64,000 nt of DNA from positions 19,334 to 83,333 of IMG/VR virus record IMGVR_UViG_3300008954_003554. The stretch is one strand, 5' to 3'. This stretch comes from a virus. Position numbers and translations under genes: made by a program. This document shows positions 6,648 through 56,381 of this stretch, in pieces (position 1 is the stretch's first letter; each line of letters opens with the position of its first letter). A model generated the notes under the pieces. That model had not been told where the DNA came from. It worked only from the letters and a program-made list of their open reading frames with translations, and searched no databases.

Positions 6648-6926
6648 ATGAAAATAACACGCAGACAGCTAAGACAGATTATTAAAGAAGAAACTAGAAA
6701 ACTATCAGAAGGGTGGGGTATAGATACTGGGATAGCGATTCCGAAACACGGCGTGACAATCGGTGATGTCCAGGACGAGGCTATGAGGCTTGATCAAGAC
6801 CTTTATTTCATTAACGACCGTGGAAAAACATATAAGGTGATGTCAGATGGTAATCTCCAAGGTCTGCCCGGAGATGAGCTTCCATCAGGTGTTGATGATA
6901 GATTAGTATATACAAGGAGATCATAA
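6648..6926 (+). CDS. Leader-bearing small protein, 92 aa
   Basis: Leader MKITRRQLRQIIKEE then KLSEG. Its first 15 codons are nearly identical at DNA level to those at 2755, so the leader was copied recently. The body is a short mixed alpha/beta domain (YFINDRGKTYKVMSDGNL). ATAGTTATAATATGG sits about 25 bases upstream, the candidate late promoter motif. Its stop TAA shares a base with the next ATG. Confidence 0.8.
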   Translation: MKITRRQLRQIIKEETRKLSEGWGIDTGIAIPKHGVTIGDVQDEAMRLDQDLYFINDRGKTYKVMSDGNLQGLPGDELPSGVDDRLVYTRRS

Positions 6927-41281: not shown

Positions 41282-41317
41282 TTATAATGTATTGGACAGG
41301 TGGAAATAAATATAAAC

Positions 41318-42493
41318 ATGTCGATATTCAAATCAAACCCAAGGCATGCAGATAGATCAGCATCAGACAGGTCTCGTCATAAGAAAAAGATAGCGCATGC
41401 CATAAGAGAGGGAATTCATCATATTGTATCTGATGAGTCAATTATTGGAAAAGATGGAAAGAAAAAAATCAAAATCCCAGTCAGGGGAATTAAAGAATAT
41501 AGGTTTGTATTTGGGGATAACAACAGAAAAAAAGTAGGTTCGGCACCGGGAAAGGATATCTCAAGGGGACAGCGGATAGGACAGTCTGATCAGCAGCAGC
41601 AAGGGTCAGGAAACAAACCGGGAAATGAAGAGGGTGAGGAGTATTACGAAGTAGAAATAACCCTAGAAGAGTTAAGTGAATATCTTTTTGATAGCCTTAA
41701 GCTTCCCGATATTGAAAAAAAGAAATTCAAAAGCATAGTTGGAGAAAAATATAAAAGATCAGGATACAGAAAAAAAGGTATTCGTCCCAGGCTGTCGAAG
41801 AAACAAACACTTATTAATAAAATAAAGCGTAGAAAAAAAGCCTATTTTGAAAATAGTGAAGATGAGAATGAAAGATTTCCATTCCACAAAGATGATTTAA
41901 AATATCATCATATTAAAACTAAACCAAAAGAAGTAACAAGCGCTGTTATATTTTTTATGATGGATGTTTCTGGATCCATGACGCAGACAAAAAAGTTCAT
42001 GGCACGATCTTTTTTCTTTCTCTTGTATCATTTCTTGAGAGCAAAATATAATAATGTTGAAATAGTTTTCATATCTCACACAACAGTTGCCAAAGAAGTT
42101 TCTGAAGATGAGTTCTTTACAAGAGGAGCTAGCGGGGGTACCAAAATATCTTCTGCTCTAGAGCTATGTCTTGACATTGTCAATAAGCGTTTTCATCCTT
42201 CCGCGTGGAATATATACACTTTTCACTGTTCAGACGGAGATAATTGGACCGATGATAATGAAAAGTGTGTTTCACTTTCTAGAACTATCAAATCACTTTC
42301 ACAACTTTACTGTTTTGTTGAAATAACACCTGAAATATTTGAAAATGATGGAAATACAACCTTTGGATTTTCCCAAGAAAGTAAAATATCCAACTCATAC
42401 ACACCGATGAAAGATTCTAAATTTAAAATAGTAAACCTGTTTCACAGTGATGACATATGGAAAGAATTTAAAAGAATATTTGGAGGAAGCTAG
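41318..42493 (+). CDS. yeaH: YeaH/YhbH family protein (DUF444, VWA-like)
   Basis: 391 residues from ATG 41318 (MSIFKSNPRHADRSASDRSR); a GTG at 41300 is also possible. Basic N-terminus and Gln-rich linker typical of DUF444, then a VWA-like domain with D216-x-S218-x-S220 (FMMDVSGSM) and a later GGTKISSALE. Directly abuts SpoVR and then PrkA. In bacteria the YeaG(PrkA)-YeaH-YcgB(SpoVR) set acts in nitrogen starvation and stationary-phase stress or sporulation. A complete set in a phage is unusual. Confidence 0.88.
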   Translation: MSIFKSNPRHADRSASDRSRHKKKIAHAIREGIHHIVSDESIIGKDGKKKIKIPVRGIKEYRFVFGDNNRKKVGSAPGKDISRGQRIGQSDQQQQGSGNKPGNEEGEEYYEVEITLEELSEYLFDSLKLPDIEKKKFKSIVGEKYKRSGYRKKGIRPRLSKKQTLINKIKRRKKAYFENSEDENERFPFHKDDLKYHHIKTKPKEVTSAVIFFMMDVSGSMTQTKKFMARSFFFLLYHFLRAKYNNVEIVFISHTTVAKEVSEDEFFTRGASGGTKISSALELCLDIVNKRFHPSAWNIYTFHCSDGDNWTDDNEKCVSLSRTIKSLSQLYCFVEITPEIFENDGNTTFGFSQESKISNSYTPMKDSKFKIVNLFHSDDIWKEFKRIFGGS

Positions 42494-43810
42494 ATGTCTG
42501 ACTGGTCAATGAAAGATTTAGAAACCTGGGATGAGAAGATTATACAGATTGCCAAGGGATATAATTTAGATTGGTTTCCAATAAACTATGAAATATCCGA
42601 CTACTATGACATGATTGGTAGCATGGTATATCATGGGATGCCATCACACTACGGTCACTGGTCTTATGGAAAATCATTTGAAAGAACTCATTTAAACTAT
42701 AATTTTGGGATGACTGGGTTGCCATACGAGCTTATAATCAATTCGAATCCATCGATTGCGTATCTTATGAAAGAAAATCCTCTATACCTTCAGATATTGA
42801 TTATGGCTCACTGTATTGGACATTCTGATTTTTTTAAAAATAGTAGAATATTTTCACACACAAGGCCCGGGGACATTGTTACCAAGCTTAGAAGTGCAAA
42901 AAAGAGAATTCAAAAATATTCTGAAGATCCGGGTATTGGAATGGAAAAAGTAGAGAAGACTCTTGACTCTCTAAGGTCGATACAGTATCAAACGAGCAGA
43001 TTTAATCTTCCTCAGCTTTCACATGTAGAGAAAAAAAGAAGAATTGTAGAAAAAATAAATAAAACTAGTTCAAAAAAAGAAAGTGCAAAACTTAGAGAGA
43101 GTCTAGATAGGATTCCAGTTGAGCCAGAAACAGATCTTTTATGGACAATTCTTGAATTTGGAAACCACATACCCGAATGGAAAAAAGATATTATAAACAT
43201 AGTAAGAGAAGAATCTCTCTACTTTATACCCCAGATTAGAACAAAAATTTTAAATGAAGGGTGGGCCAGTTTTTGGCACTATAGAATATTAAATGATCTA
43301 AATCTGCCTCAAAAGTATCATATTCCATTTTTAAGAAGTCACAATCAAGTAATTAGACCCCATTTGGGTGGAATTAATCCGTATCATTTGGGATTTTATT
43401 TATTTGACAAGGTAGAGAAAAGAGACGGAATAGAGGAATGTTTTCTAATTAGAGAAATACATGATGATGCCTCTGCAATTAGGTTCCTATTGGAACAAGA
43501 AGATTGTGAAAATTTAAACCTATTCTCCTATTCAAAGAAAAAAAAGCTAACTTCAATAGACGATGTCTCTGATGACGTGGGGTGGAGAAACATTAAGAAT
43601 GATCTAGTAATGACAACAGGGGTTAACTCTATCCCTGTAATCGGAGTTGATGAAATTTTATCTGATGGTACTTTAATTTTATTACACGACCATGACGGAA
43701 GAGATTTAGAGTTAAATTATGCCGAAGAGGTTGTCGAGCATATTAGATATTTATGGGATAGAGATGTTAAGCTGTTTACGATTATCGAAGAAGAAACGTG
43801 GGAAATCTAA
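42494..43810 (+). CDS. spoVR: SpoVR family protein
   Basis: 438 residues, starting right after the YeaH stop with GGAGGAAGCT as ribosome site. SpoVR hallmarks: DWFPINYEISDYYDMIGSMV, HYGHWSYGKSFE, LNYNFGMTGLPYELIINSNP (near IAYLMKENP) and NEGWASFWHYRILNDL. SpoVR affects spore cortex in Bacillus; its biochemical role is unknown. Here it is at or slightly below normal length (~470-510). Confidence 0.92.
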   Translation: MSDWSMKDLETWDEKIIQIAKGYNLDWFPINYEISDYYDMIGSMVYHGMPSHYGHWSYGKSFERTHLNYNFGMTGLPYELIINSNPSIAYLMKENPLYLQILIMAHCIGHSDFFKNSRIFSHTRPGDIVTKLRSAKKRIQKYSEDPGIGMEKVEKTLDSLRSIQYQTSRFNLPQLSHVEKKRRIVEKINKTSSKKESAKLRESLDRIPVEPETDLLWTILEFGNHIPEWKKDIINIVREESLYFIPQIRTKILNEGWASFWHYRILNDLNLPQKYHIPFLRSHNQVIRPHLGGINPYHLGFYLFDKVEKRDGIEECFLIREIHDDASAIRFLLEQEDCENLNLFSYSKKKKLTSIDDVSDDVGWRNIKNDLVMTTGVNSIPVIGVDEILSDGTLILLHDHDGRDLELNYAEEVVEHIRYLWDRDVKLFTIIEEETWEI

Positions 43811-43864
43811 TGCAAAGGGTTTATATTTCCATAATTCAAAGTAAAATCTCATATAGAGGATCAG

Positions 43865-45796
43865 ATGCCTGATAAGAACAAATTTTTAAAAATCATAGAA
43901 GATCAAAGAAAAGGAAAAAAGAAAGAAAAGTTTTCTGGTAATTTCCTAGAGTATCTTAATATTATAAAGGAAAATCCTGAGACAACTCAGACGGCTCATC
44001 AGAGACTCTACAGGAAGATTGAAAGCTTTGGTGTGAGTGAGATAGATCGATCTGACCCTAGATTCCAGGGGGTTTTTTGCGGAGAAAAAGTTAAAACATA
44101 TGAATATTTCAAAGATGAATTTTTTGGAATGGAAAATGTAATTTCAAAAATAATGAGATTTCTTAGGTCTGCTGCACACAGAGGTGAAGAGAGCAGGCAG
44201 GTTCTTCTCCTTCTTGGCCCAGTTGGTGCAGGTAAATCAGCGCTGACAGAGCATGTAAAAAAATCGCTCGAAGGGGAGAGGTTTTATCATTTATCAGGAG
44301 ATCCCCAGAAAGGGGAGCCCCTCCAGTTGATCCCTAGAAACCTAAGGGAAAAATTTGAAGAAATTCTAGGTGTAAAAATAGAGGGAGATATCAGTCCCGT
44401 TGCCAGATTTAAGCTCCTCGAAGAGTTCAAGGGAAAATATGAGAATTTTCCTGTTGTAGAATCAAGCTTTTCCCAGAGAGCTCGTAGAGGGATAGCTGTT
44501 GTTCCTCCCATGGATCCAAATAGTCAGGACACCAGCGTTCTAATAGGGTCGGAAGATATATCTAAATTAGACTTATATCCAGAAGACGATCCCAGAACGC
44601 TATCTCTCAATGGAGCTTTTAACGTCGGAAATAGGGGAATCGTAGAGTTTGTTGAAATTTTTAAAAATGAAATAGAGTTTTTACATACCATTATTACGGC
44701 AACACAGGAAAAAAGAGTACCTAGCCCGGGAAAAAATGCTATGATTCACTTCGACGGTGTGATACTTTCTCACTGTAATGAAGCTGAGTGGAATAAGTTT
44801 CAAAGTGAACATACTAATGAGGCAATCTTAGATAGGATTGTTATGATTAGAGTTCCATACGTTCTTGAGCTAGATCAAGAAATTAAAATATATGAAAAGA
44901 TGATATCTCGATCAGACTTTTCGGCACACATTGCTCCTCATACCCTTAGAGTTGCCTCAATGTTTTCTGTTGCCTCTAGGCTCAGGGAGTCTCAAAAGTG
45001 CGATATTTTAACAAAAATGAAAATCTATAACGGAGAAGATGTTATAGAAAAGGGAAGAGTCAAAAGCATAGACATTACAGATCTAAGAGAGGAATCCCAC
45101 GATGAAGGAATGAGCGGAATATCTACAAGATTTATAATGAAATCCCTAGATAATGCCCTATCCGATTCAGAAAAAGGAATGGTTACACCTATTTCGGTAG
45201 TCGACGCCCTTGTCAAGCAAGTGAAAGAACAGGTAGTCTCAGAAGAAGAAAGAACAAGATTGCTAGAAATTCTACAAAAAACAATTAGAGAAGAGTATCT
45301 TAAAATCCTAGAAAATGAAATCGCAAAAGCGTTTGTCACCGCTTACGAAGAGCAGGCACAATCACTTTTTGATTCTTATCTCGATAATGCTGAAGCATAC
45401 ACTACTAGAAAAAATCTAAAAGATCGCGTTACAAAAGAAGAAAGAGATCCAGATGAGCATTTCATGAGAGCAATTGAAGAACAGATTGGAATATCGGGAT
45501 CTTCTCGCGATGGATTTAGATCAGATGTCACAGCATATATGTTTGCTAAAATGAGAAGAGGTGAAAAAGTAGAGTATAAAACTTATACCCCTCTCAAAGA
45601 AGCGATTGAATCTTATTTAATATCTTCAGTAAAAGATATAGCTAGAATTGTTACAAAGAGTAAATCAAGGGACGATGATCAAAAGAAGAAATATAGTGAA
45701 ATGATCCAGACCCTCATAGATGAATATGGTTACAATAAAGATTCTGCAGAGGAAATTTTAACTTATGCAGCTAACAATCTCTGGAGAGATTCATAA
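43865..45796 (+). CDS. prkA: PrkA/YeaG serine kinase-family AAA+ protein
   Basis: 643 residues, full length. The N-terminal PrkA AAA domain has Walker A GPVGAGKS (118-125); characteristic segments include FFGMENVISKIMRFLRSAAH, SLNGAFNVGNRGIVEFVEIF and DGVILSHCNEAEWNKF. PrkA proteins were reported as serine kinases and also act as ATP-dependent proteases in Bacillus. With SpoVR and YeaH it forms the complete three-gene stress module. Confidence 0.92.
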   Translation: MPDKNKFLKIIEDQRKGKKKEKFSGNFLEYLNIIKENPETTQTAHQRLYRKIESFGVSEIDRSDPRFQGVFCGEKVKTYEYFKDEFFGMENVISKIMRFLRSAAHRGEESRQVLLLLGPVGAGKSALTEHVKKSLEGERFYHLSGDPQKGEPLQLIPRNLREKFEEILGVKIEGDISPVARFKLLEEFKGKYENFPVVESSFSQRARRGIAVVPPMDPNSQDTSVLIGSEDISKLDLYPEDDPRTLSLNGAFNVGNRGIVEFVEIFKNEIEFLHTIITATQEKRVPSPGKNAMIHFDGVILSHCNEAEWNKFQSEHTNEAILDRIVMIRVPYVLELDQEIKIYEKMISRSDFSAHIAPHTLRVASMFSVASRLRESQKCDILTKMKIYNGEDVIEKGRVKSIDITDLREESHDEGMSGISTRFIMKSLDNALSDSEKGMVTPISVVDALVKQVKEQVVSEEERTRLLEILQKTIREEYLKILENEIAKAFVTAYEEQAQSLFDSYLDNAEAYTTRKNLKDRVTKEERDPDEHFMRAIEEQIGISGSSRDGFRSDVTAYMFAKMRRGEKVEYKTYTPLKEAIESYLISSVKDIARIVTKSKSRDDDQKKKYSEMIQTLIDEYGYNKDSAEEILTYAANNLWRDS

Positions 45797-45808
45797 GTTT
45801 AATTTAAA

Positions 45809-47203
45809 ATGAATGTAAATATTTTAAATAGAGAGGAAATAAAAAGCTCTATAATAAAAAATAGTAAAAGTCTAATTGACATAGGGAAAGAAGAGACTCT
45901 TATCGGATTTAGTTCTTTTAAGCCCATTATTACACAGAACGGAATTCAATCTGCTATTTTTACCAGATCAGGGGATAGGATTTTTGATAAAATAATAAAG
46001 CCTACTATTATTATAGATTGTATTGATGCAGAGCTTTCTGTCCCTGGGTCTGGAGATATATCTTTAGATATAACTTCAAGATTAATTTATAACCTCTACG
46101 GAAAAATAGGAACAGGAATAGATTTTAAAGACTATTCAAAAATTTCAAATAATTTTCTATCTTTTTGCATAGAGGCAATAAGAGATATAGGTTATCATCC
46201 TACAAAAAAAGACTTACAAAAGCTAATAAATCAAGAAAACAAAGATCCCTTTATTAGAAGCGTGATCAAAAGTTGTATCGATTTATCAGGCGCCAGACGA
46301 GAGATAACATGCAGAGTTTCTAATTCTTTTGAAACAATGATAAAAGTTGAAGAAGGTTATAAGTTTCCTATAAAACCCTATCAGGGATTTGTTTCCGAAA
46401 AATGGAAAAAGAACAATGTCGCAGTCATTACAATAGACGGGGCAGTTGTAGAAATATCAGAGATACATCACGTCCTAGAAAAATGTAGTGAAAAAGAAAT
46501 ACCTGCAATTATTTTTTGTAGAAATTTTTCTCCTGATGTTTTAAATACCCTTTATGTAAATAAAAGACGAGGAACTCTTGATATTATTCCAGTTGAAATA
46601 TCAATAGAAGACGAGACGCTTAATATGCTAAAAGACATATGCGTTGTTTCTGGTTCGAGATTGATTAGCTCCGACATGGGAGATCTAATATCTTCTTCAG
46701 TTAGGAAAGGATTGATATATGTCGACTCAGTAGAGATGACTGAGGATTATGTTAAGATATTTAATAGAAAAACTGAAAAAGACTCTCGTGAGCATCTGAG
46801 GTTTTTAAAAAATAAAAGAAGTAAAGCTGATCCGCAGGTCCAGCCCTATATCGATGATAGAATAAAATCCATGACTTGTGAGTCAGTTTCGATTTCTATC
46901 GGACAAGATCAATTAAATCGAAATAAAGTTACTGTGGAAAAAATTGATAGCTTCTTAAGATCTTTAAAAACTTTTTTTAGAACCGGATGTGTTGATACAG
47001 TAGAGTTTGAAAAAGTCCTATTAAAAAGAAAAAAAATATCAGAAAATATAGAAAAAATTCTAATTGATTCAATTATAAATGCTATCAAATCCTCTAATAA
47101 AAAAATTATTTCTGTTGGTTCGGTTGTAAAGGCGTTGAAAATCTCTATGTCAACAGCTAATTCTATTTTTTCTACTTCAGTTATTCTGGCTGATGATAGT
47201 TAA
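45809..47203 (+). CDS. Divergent GroEL-like chaperonin
   Basis: 464 residues, shorter than GroEL (~545). The apical domain is recognisable: YQGFVSEKWKKNNVAVITID (opening like GyxSPYF...), IPAIIFCRNFSPDVLNTLYV, NKRRGTLDIIPVEI, then LNMLKDICVVSGSRLISSDM matching the LeDiAiLTGG region. The equatorial ATP-binding GDGTT motif is not evident, so ATP use is uncertain. Phage chaperonins exist (e.g. phage EL) and some are single-ring. It may fold head or fibre proteins or a phage client. Confidence 0.8.
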   Translation: MNVNILNREEIKSSIIKNSKSLIDIGKEETLIGFSSFKPIITQNGIQSAIFTRSGDRIFDKIIKPTIIIDCIDAELSVPGSGDISLDITSRLIYNLYGKIGTGIDFKDYSKISNNFLSFCIEAIRDIGYHPTKKDLQKLINQENKDPFIRSVIKSCIDLSGARREITCRVSNSFETMIKVEEGYKFPIKPYQGFVSEKWKKNNVAVITIDGAVVEISEIHHVLEKCSEKEIPAIIFCRNFSPDVLNTLYVNKRRGTLDIIPVEISIEDETLNMLKDICVVSGSRLISSDMGDLISSSVRKGLIYVDSVEMTEDYVKIFNRKTEKDSREHLRFLKNKRSKADPQVQPYIDDRIKSMTCESVSISIGQDQLNRNKVTVEKIDSFLRSLKTFFRTGCVDTVEFEKVLLKRKKISENIEKILIDSIINAIKSSNKKIISVGSVVKALKISMSTANSIFSTSVILADDS

Positions 47204-48218: not shown

Positions 48219-48407
48219 ATGAGTAAGACAGATTTAGTTAACCAGTGGACAGAACTTAAAGTTCTAGTTGAAAGCCTAGAGCTTGATGTTCTTAAAAATG
48301 CAAACGGGAACAAGTCAGCAGGTGTTAGAGCAAGAAAAGGTCTTAGGCTTCTTAAGCAGAGATCTGGCGATCTTGTTAAGACTTCGTTGCTAGAAGACAA
48401 GAGCTAA
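48219..48407 (+). CDS. Hc1/histone H1-like small protein
   Basis: 62 residues. ELKVLVESLELDVLKNANGN, then KSAGVRARKGLRLLKQRSGD, matches the conserved N-terminal core of Hc1-type bacterial histone H1-like proteins (GNKAAGTRxRKxLxxLK). The basic repeat tail of chlamydial Hc1 is missing. Such cores are frequent in large phages and probably bind DNA. It ends 11 bases before the tmRNA. Confidence 0.72.
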   Translation: MSKTDLVNQWTELKVLVESLELDVLKNANGNKSAGVRARKGLRLLKQRSGDLVKTSLLEDKS

Positions 48408-48418
48408 TATATAAACAT

Positions 48419-48787
48419 GGGCCCGAAACGGCTTCGACGGGGTAGGAGAGAAGAAGAGTGCAGGTGGTCGCACGAGACAGCGGACCTTAAGCGTGGTTTC
48501 AAAACTTTAATTGCCAATAACAATTATCACTTCGAATCTGTCCGCCTAGCGGCTTAATCGGTGGGGTTTCTTAAGACCTTATTACCCAATTTAAGATAAC
48601 AGGTAGAGATCCTGCGAAATAAAAAAATCAGAATGGTTCCCTGGAAACAGGTGGGGCGCAACAGGTTGATAAGCGCAGGGATGATCAACTATCTTTTCTA
48701 ATTTGTGATAGTAAATTAGATAAACCTGTGAATGACTTGACTTTGAAGCTATTGCGGACGCGGGTTCGACTCCCGCCGGGTCCACCA
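48419..48787 (+). ncRNA. ssrA: tmRNA, phage-encoded, tag ANNNYHFESVRLAA
   Basis: The 5' end GGGCCCG pairs with CGGGTCC at the 3' end, including the G3-U70 pair needed for alanine charging; encoded CCA. The D-region GGCTTCGACGGGG and T-arm GCGGGTTCGACTCCCGC are standard. The tag frame runs 48513-48557: GCC resume codon to TAA, 14 residues ending LAA, as required for ClpXP-type degradation. It would rescue stalled ribosomes and tag products with its own sequence. Confidence 0.96.
48513..48557 (+). CDS. tmRNA tag reading frame
   Basis: Fourteen codons plus TAA, translated only by trans-translation from the GCC resume codon: A-N-N-N-Y-H-F-E-S-V-R-L-A-A. Charged and aromatic residues replace the usual DENYA middle. 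Confidence 0.9.
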   Translation, partial: ANNNYHFESVRLAA

Positions 48788-55033: not shown

Positions 55034-55085
55034 ATAATAAAAATGTATCTTAATGAAAGGGGATGTACACAAAAGGAGGCAGACT

Positions 55086-56381
55086 ATGGGCAATAGAAAA
55101 AACTTTATCATAGATACTTCAGTATTATTATATGACAAAAATTCTATTCATTCTTTTAAAAATCACGACGTTGTTATTCCAATGGTAGTTCTTGATGAGC
55201 TAGATAGGTTTAAAGACAAGCAAGGTATTTTAGGTGAAAATGCTAGATATGTCAATAGATTTCTAGACGGATTAAGAGATCTTGGAAAATTACATGAAGG
55301 TGTTGCATTAAAAAATGGTCAAACAATAAAAGTCGAAAAGAATCACATGAATACAGTTCCAAACTCTCTGGATTTAAATTCAGGTGATAATCAAATAATC
55401 GGAACATGTCTATTTTTATCCGAGAGTGATAAGGATAAAAAAACTGTTGTAGTAACAAAAGATATAAACTTTAGAGTGAAATGTGACTCTCTAGACATAC
55501 TTTCTGAAGATTATTATAGGGATCGGATAGTTAATGACAGTGATGAAATTTACACAGGCCAATCGACGATAGACCTCAAGTGTAGTGATACATTTAATTC
55601 ATTTTTTGAAAATGGAGATCCCATATCACTTGTTGATATCGGTGTTGAACTTTTTCCTAACCAATATGTTGTTGGTAAGTTTGGATCTCAATCATTGCTA
55701 GGCGTTGTTAAGGATAGCAAGATACACCCACTTACGAAAAATCTGGACACTCTAATAAAAGTAAGTGCTAGAAACAAGGAACAAAAGTTTGCACTAGATT
55801 TACTCACTAGAGATGATATAGATATTGTAACACTCTCTGGGATAGCTGGGTCTGGAAAGACTTTTTTGGCTCTAATGGCTGCACTTTCTGGAATTAATTC
55901 AAAAAAATACGATAGAGTAATTTTTACCAGAAGTATTCAGCCTGTTGGAAAAGAGATAGGTTTCCTTCCCGGAGATATCAAAGACAAGATGGATCCTTGG
56001 ATATCACCGCTGGTTGATAACTTTAGACATGCTTTTCAAGATATCAGCTATTTTGAAGTAATGAGGGACAAAGGCAAGATAGAGATTGCTCCTATGGCTT
56101 TTATTAGAGGTAGAACATTTAATAGATCTATTATAATAGTAGATGAGGCTCAAAACGCATCTATTCATGAGTTAAAGACGATAATAACGAGAGTCGGAGA
56201 AGATTCAAAAATAATACTTTTAGGAGATGTAGAGCAAATAGATACACCCTACATAGACACTCTTTCAAACGGCTTGACAATTGTTGTTGAAAAATTTAAG
56301 AAAGAGAAAATTGCTGGTCACATTACTCTTCAAAAGGGAGAAAGATCAAAGTTGGCAACTTTGGCATCAAAGATAATTTAG
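55086..56381 (+). CDS. phoH: PIN-PhoH fusion (PhoH2/YlaK type)
   Basis: 431 residues from ATG 55086 after AAAGGAGG. The N-terminal PIN RNase domain (FIIDTSVLLYDKNSI, VIPMVVLDELDRF, VVTKDINFRVK) runs to about 150. The C-terminal PhoH ATPase has Walker A GIAGSGKT (252-259) and Walker B SIIIVDEAQNA. PhoH2 proteins act as RNA helicase/RNase. PhoH is a frequent phage gene, so this fits a phage setting. Confidence 0.92.
   Translation: MGNRKNFIIDTSVLLYDKNSIHSFKNHDVVIPMVVLDELDRFKDKQGILGENARYVNRFLDGLRDLGKLHEGVALKNGQTIKVEKNHMNTVPNSLDLNSGDNQIIGTCLFLSESDKDKKTVVVTKDINFRVKCDSLDILSEDYYRDRIVNDSDEIYTGQSTIDLKCSDTFNSFFENGDPISLVDIGVELFPNQYVVGKFGSQSLLGVVKDSKIHPLTKNLDTLIKVSARNKEQKFALDLLTRDDIDIVTLSGIAGSGKTFLALMAALSGINSKKYDRVIFTRSIQPVGKEIGFLPGDIKDKMDPWISPLVDNFRHAFQDISYFEVMRDKGKIEIAPMAFIRGRTFNRSIIIVDEAQNASIHELKTIITRVGEDSKIILLGDVEQIDTPYIDTLSNGLTIVVEKFKKEKIAGHITLQKGERSKLATLASKII

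Follow-up and report, generated by a model that had tools for sequence, protein, structure and literature searches.

In the current analysis, we found that the window (the whole stretch of viral DNA analysed, 64,000 nucleotides) encodes a complete tmRNA whose peptide tag belongs to a family borne by phages. We consider it probable (roughly 0.8) that this is a working tmRNA of a large-phage lineage, inherited rather than recently copied from a host gene, and predicted to use the host's AlaRS, SmpB and Clp protease. Phage tmRNAs as such are already known; the part worth attention is a phage-borne tag family whose ends have switched repeatedly. A large set of phage tmRNAs in a conserved place, with selected tags and with near kin that differ by tag, bears on the question of why phages carry tmRNA.

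ARAGORN calls a gene with exactly the limits given in Table 1 and reads its tag as ANNNYHFESVRLAA, and the Rfam model RF00023 matches it over its full length (positions 1-374), scoring 109 bits (cut-off 47; E 1.1e-41). The alanine identity pair G3-U70 and the CCA end are both present, and the original prediction of a complete tmRNA with this pair and this tag is confirmed by both programs and by the acceptor stem. The middle of the molecule, including the ring of pseudoknots around the tag, is aligned with less certainty (mean posterior 0.61) by RF00023, which models its structure without pseudoknots. ARAGORN shows the standard gene order and not the permuted (two-piece) one. Among 47 phage tmRNAs, G3-U70 is invariant (111 of 112 in a larger set), while both partners of acceptor pairs 4, 5 and 6 vary and no pair is broken. 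The source record is itself a fragment, an 83,333-bp uncultivated virus contig; an identical tag is encoded by contig 3300007512_002660, a shorter assembly obtained from a different metagenome, which breaks off before the 3′ end of the tmRNA.

Table 1. Positions in the window of the tmRNA, its parts and the neighboring genes
Feature	Position	Strand	Remarks
YeaH (DUF444), SpoVR, PrkA (YeaG) and GroEL-like genes	41300..47203	+	upstream of tmRNA
62-aa ORF	48219..48407	+	directly upstream of tmRNA (11 nt from stop codon to tmRNA); syntenic in relatives
tmRNA gene (ssrA)	48419..48787	+	complete, one-piece, CCA encoded; ARAGORN, Rfam RF00023 109 bits
Acceptor stem, 5′ strand	48419..48425	+	GGGCCCG; G3 = 48421
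Tag reading frame	48513..48557	+	ANNNYHFESVRLAA-stop; GCC resume codon to TAA
P5-like stem-loop	48534..48559	+	from tag codons 8-14, stop codon and two bases; inner stem CCGC-CUA-GCGG
T arm	48760..48776	+	GCGGG-TTCGACT-CCCGC; intact
Acceptor stem, 3′ strand	48777..48783	+	CGGGTCC; U70 = 48781; ACCA next
Encoded CCA end	48785-48787	+	
PhoH-like gene	55053..56381	+	downstream of tmRNA here and in many relatives

The tag belongs to a class that we searched for with the pattern AN[ND]NxH[FY][DE]xxRLAA-stop. Tags of the form ANNNxH[FY][DE]xxRLAA were found in 45 IMG/VR viral contigs, some of them not independent, as against one match in 84,980 bacterial and archaeal species genomes (GTDB representatives, one genome per species, contigs of at least 3 kb), a search by exact pattern that is blind to related tags such as ANNNxHFExxALAA. 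The one match lies on L114, a 4.7-kb contig of a Flavobacteriales MAG that is phage-like by its ORFs as judged by eye, with a tubulin/FtsZ-like protein and a leader ORF like those of the window. The tubulin/FtsZ-like ORF (L114 823-2040, minus strand) carries a GGGTGS-type motif. No deposited phage is similar at the DNA level. The nearest, by the terminase of relatives (41-47% identity), are Flavobacterium phage immuto and Microcystis phage Mel-JY01, and neither yields a tmRNA over the Rfam cut-off.

The tmRNA also has a conserved place. In large uncultivated phages, we found the block YeaH-SpoVR-PrkA-GroEL-like-u154-u83-small ORF-tmRNA-PhoH, in which three small ORFs sit between the GroEL-like gene and the tmRNA. 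Viral contigs with a PrkA relative, which reach 361 kb, repeat this gene order, and many of them have the tmRNA at the same position; a tmRNA above the Rfam cut-off was present in 15 of the 44 records searched whole, most of which are fragments. A second set of phages, which showed no PrkA block in the vicinity of the tmRNA, also has tmRNAs of this family; wherever PhoH is visible too, the tmRNA precedes it by about 1-7 kb. In four members of this PhoH group (L141, L143, L155 and L164), the Lys/Arg-rich end of the upstream ORF appears to run into the 5′ end of the tmRNA. Separately, the YeaH (DUF444)-SpoVR-PrkA operon, a bacterial stress module (window 41300-45796), is common to many viral contigs, and tblastn confirmed 201 stretches with PrkA relatives.

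To judge from its codons, the tag is under purifying selection. Among 36 distinct related tmRNAs with 14-aa RLAA tags, codon variation is concentrated at third positions (mean entropy 0.76, versus 0.23 and 0.19 at the other two), and pN/pS is 0.19, a value in which pN is lowered because the set was gathered partly by means of a pattern in which many residues are fixed, including most of the invariant ones (A1, N2, N3, N4, H6, R11, L12, A13 and A14). Tags found independently, via PrkA, show the same residues. Part of the tag's odd sequence is explained by a second role of its codons, since most relatives form an RNA stem from codons 8-14. The inner stem links the Arg codon with that of Ala13, and we read this as dual coding, in which the Arg codon would also be part of a P5-like stem. 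Because the last codons form this stem, Arg CGC and Ala13 GCG go together: among 37 RLAA tags, the two codons are CGC-GCG in 34, CGU-GCG in 2 and CGG-GCC in 1 (L008). Covariation was rejected as proof of this structure; in the RLAA rows, 88.8% of cells are paired, compared with at most 47% when the pairing is slid, and shuffles cannot separate a stem from codon conservation because most pairs are invariant.

These observations bear on whether the tag peptide matters at all. It is possible, if in our view somewhat unlikely, that ribosome rescue alone is the benefit and that the tag is free to drift as long as the P5-like stem and a generic LAA end are kept, in which case its oddness would mean little. 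The stem formed by codons 8-14 in most relatives is in keeping with this, as are the Ala13 codon (GCG in 36 of 37 RLAA tags, variable in ALAA tags), the exchange of CGG-GCC for CGC-GCG in L008, and the sheer diversity of tags elsewhere, with 710 distinct tags among 1,631 tmRNA sequences (PMC4131195). However, the codons outside the stem also vary mainly synonymously (albeit in a collection whose pattern fixes several residues), and thus the peptide itself seems to be selected.

The tag ends have changed repeatedly. A tree was built from the bodies of 112 phage tmRNAs, excluding the tag and the acceptor ends; about 10 changes are needed on it to account for the R/A state before LAA, and six independent pairs differ in this state on supported branches. 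L027 (tag ANNNNHFESVRLAA) is the sister of L011 (tag ANNNNHYEYALAA), and L008 is closely related to L084; L323 clusters with L128 by tmRNA body, yet its tag is ANDNVAFDYALAA. The pairs L027/L011, L008/L084 and L323/L128 could reveal whether the tag peptide, beyond ribosome rescue, matters to the phage. A coupling of tag type to acceptor pair 4-69 (C-G with RLAA) was suggestive in a few close pairs and was rejected as nonsignificant over the six supported pairs (median p 0.125). The L116 tmRNA (1493-1926; tag ANNADYTRNYSYALAA), which comes from a phage-like contig of the same MAG as L114, was omitted from the larger trees because its gene is permuted (two-piece).

The original prediction went further and proposed that the phage may redirect rescued proteins. 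As it had stated, the context used by SspB is absent from the middle of the tag, which, with the charged alanine, reads AANNNYHF; the E. coli adaptor requires AANDENY, and ClpX requires an ALAA end (PMC8512704). Its statement that only the initial A and the LAA end resemble host tags was too strong; RLAA ends are not rare in bacteria, occurring in the M. tuberculosis tag ADSHQRLAA (PMC12493166) and in Bacteroidota, where DNNYSYRLAA made up 7 of the 28 tags that we read from the tmRNAs with the best scores. That the tag is built to route rescued proteins, for the benefit of the phage, to an adaptor or protease other than that served by the host tag is in our opinion doubtful. The restriction of the tag class to phage sequences, the amino acid conservation of the tag, the repeated RLAA/ALAA switching and the wholly different tag of L323 are what would be expected of such a design; moreover, in the E. 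coli tag, Ala8 reportedly matters for ClpA (PMC12493166), so that R at this place could lower ClpA use. Against this, the window tag keeps its LAA end and ends in an RLAA that bacterial tags share, its Arg codon also serves the RNA stem, and 27 phage records, mostly fragments, yielded no SspB-family adaptor. SmpB was likewise not found in 17 records, most of them again fragments, so host SmpB would be needed. Thus, the phage tmRNA and the near absence of its tag class from the cellular genomes searched held up, whereas redirection was not supported. It is equally speculative, and at best an outside chance, that widespread large aquatic phages use a private tag unlike any bacterial one and swap its end (RLAA or ALAA), or the whole tag, within a tmRNA that otherwise stays similar, to fit the degradation machinery of changing hosts, giving proteins rescued in infected cells a route of the phage's choosing.

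A still less probable explanation is simple recent acquisition, in which the host tmRNA would carry the same tag, the case that the original prediction named as its own refutation. GTDB representatives miss some hosts, as do searches that leave out contigs under 3 kb. However, no such case turned up in the search, in which the species genomes gave only the phage-like match, in contrast to the many viral contigs, and conserved synteny and a branching tree of phage tmRNAs both speak for inheritance within phages. A Flavobacteriales host, as the single cellular match might suggest, was rejected, given that L114 is phage-like and that Shine-Dalgarno motifs precede 50% of the window ORFs (background 10%), as opposed to 2% in a true Flavobacterium phage. 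This use of Shine-Dalgarno motifs argues against a Bacteroidota host in general. Finally, it is very improbable that the tmRNA acts as a decoy or inhibits host trans-translation, a role discussed for the mycobacteriophage DS6A tmRNA (a tRNA-like domain only); phage tmRNA parts that possibly titrate SmpB have been discussed (PMC4131195), but the molecule here is complete and its tag frame is open and selected.

We therefore favor a working, inherited phage tmRNA, and we infer its charging, its use of SmpB, its protease and its benefit to the phage along the following lines. A host enzyme would charge the tmRNA with alanine through G3-U70, and the charged molecule would bind host SmpB and enter ribosomes stalled on broken mRNA, a situation to be expected once a lytic phage breaks down the transcripts of its host. 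The peptide (A)ANNNYHFESVRLAA would then be added to the stalled product, the ribosome would be freed at UAA, and the terminal LAA would send the tagged product to a Clp-type protease of the host. The tag sequence may be set jointly by the LAA end, the codon-built RNA stem and possibly host adaptors; such joint constraints would explain the RLAA/ALAA switches.

With the bacterial one-piece tmRNA (RF00023), the window gene shares the full-length match, G3-U70, T arm, CCA, resume codon, tag frame with stop, and LAA; it differs in being phage-borne and in a tag class that is missing from the cellular genomes searched, bar the phage-like contig. Complete phage tmRNAs are on record for mycobacteriophages (Bxz1 and relatives, Wildcat) and Bacillus phage G (PMC4131195). 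These are likewise complete and lie in phage genomes, but they belong to other lineages, whereas the window tag family is common to many uncultivated aquatic phages. More broadly, 402 phages (2.3%) bear ssrA, including OM43 phage Melnitz (PMC9004378), a marine myophage whose tmRNA, like ours, has its own history. However, the Melnitz gene is two-piece and under a glutamine riboswitch, while the window gene is one-piece and located downstream of the PrkA block. Pseudomonas phage pf16 also has a gene touching the same degradation pathway, but this is an SspB adaptor without a tmRNA (PMC5587285), the reverse of the window, where a tmRNA and no SspB was found.

Other tmRNA-like genes were noted in still larger phages. 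In L182, a 484-kb phage, a tmRNA-like gene of 447 nt (LR756508.1 92434-92880) carries at the tag site an open frame of >30 codons (NNADYESAGFTAEDFAQMDGESLYHGSERKPAAV, read by eye), where ARAGORN reads another frame. The 595-kb phage L181 (LR756511.1) has a tmRNA with the short tag ANPEFAMAA followed by two consecutive stop codons.

A leader like MKITRRQLRQIIKEE, which includes an [LI]xE site, is shared at the N terminus by 17 ORFs, namely, those at 2064, 2755, 6648, 9215, 28153, 30008, 32279, 48841 and 49558 in the window and at 6691, 7110, 8184, 14224, 15631, 16046, 17396 and 18526 in L003. The [LI]xE site resembles the cleavage site of the T4 prohead protease, and this shared leader is perhaps a capsid-targeting one.
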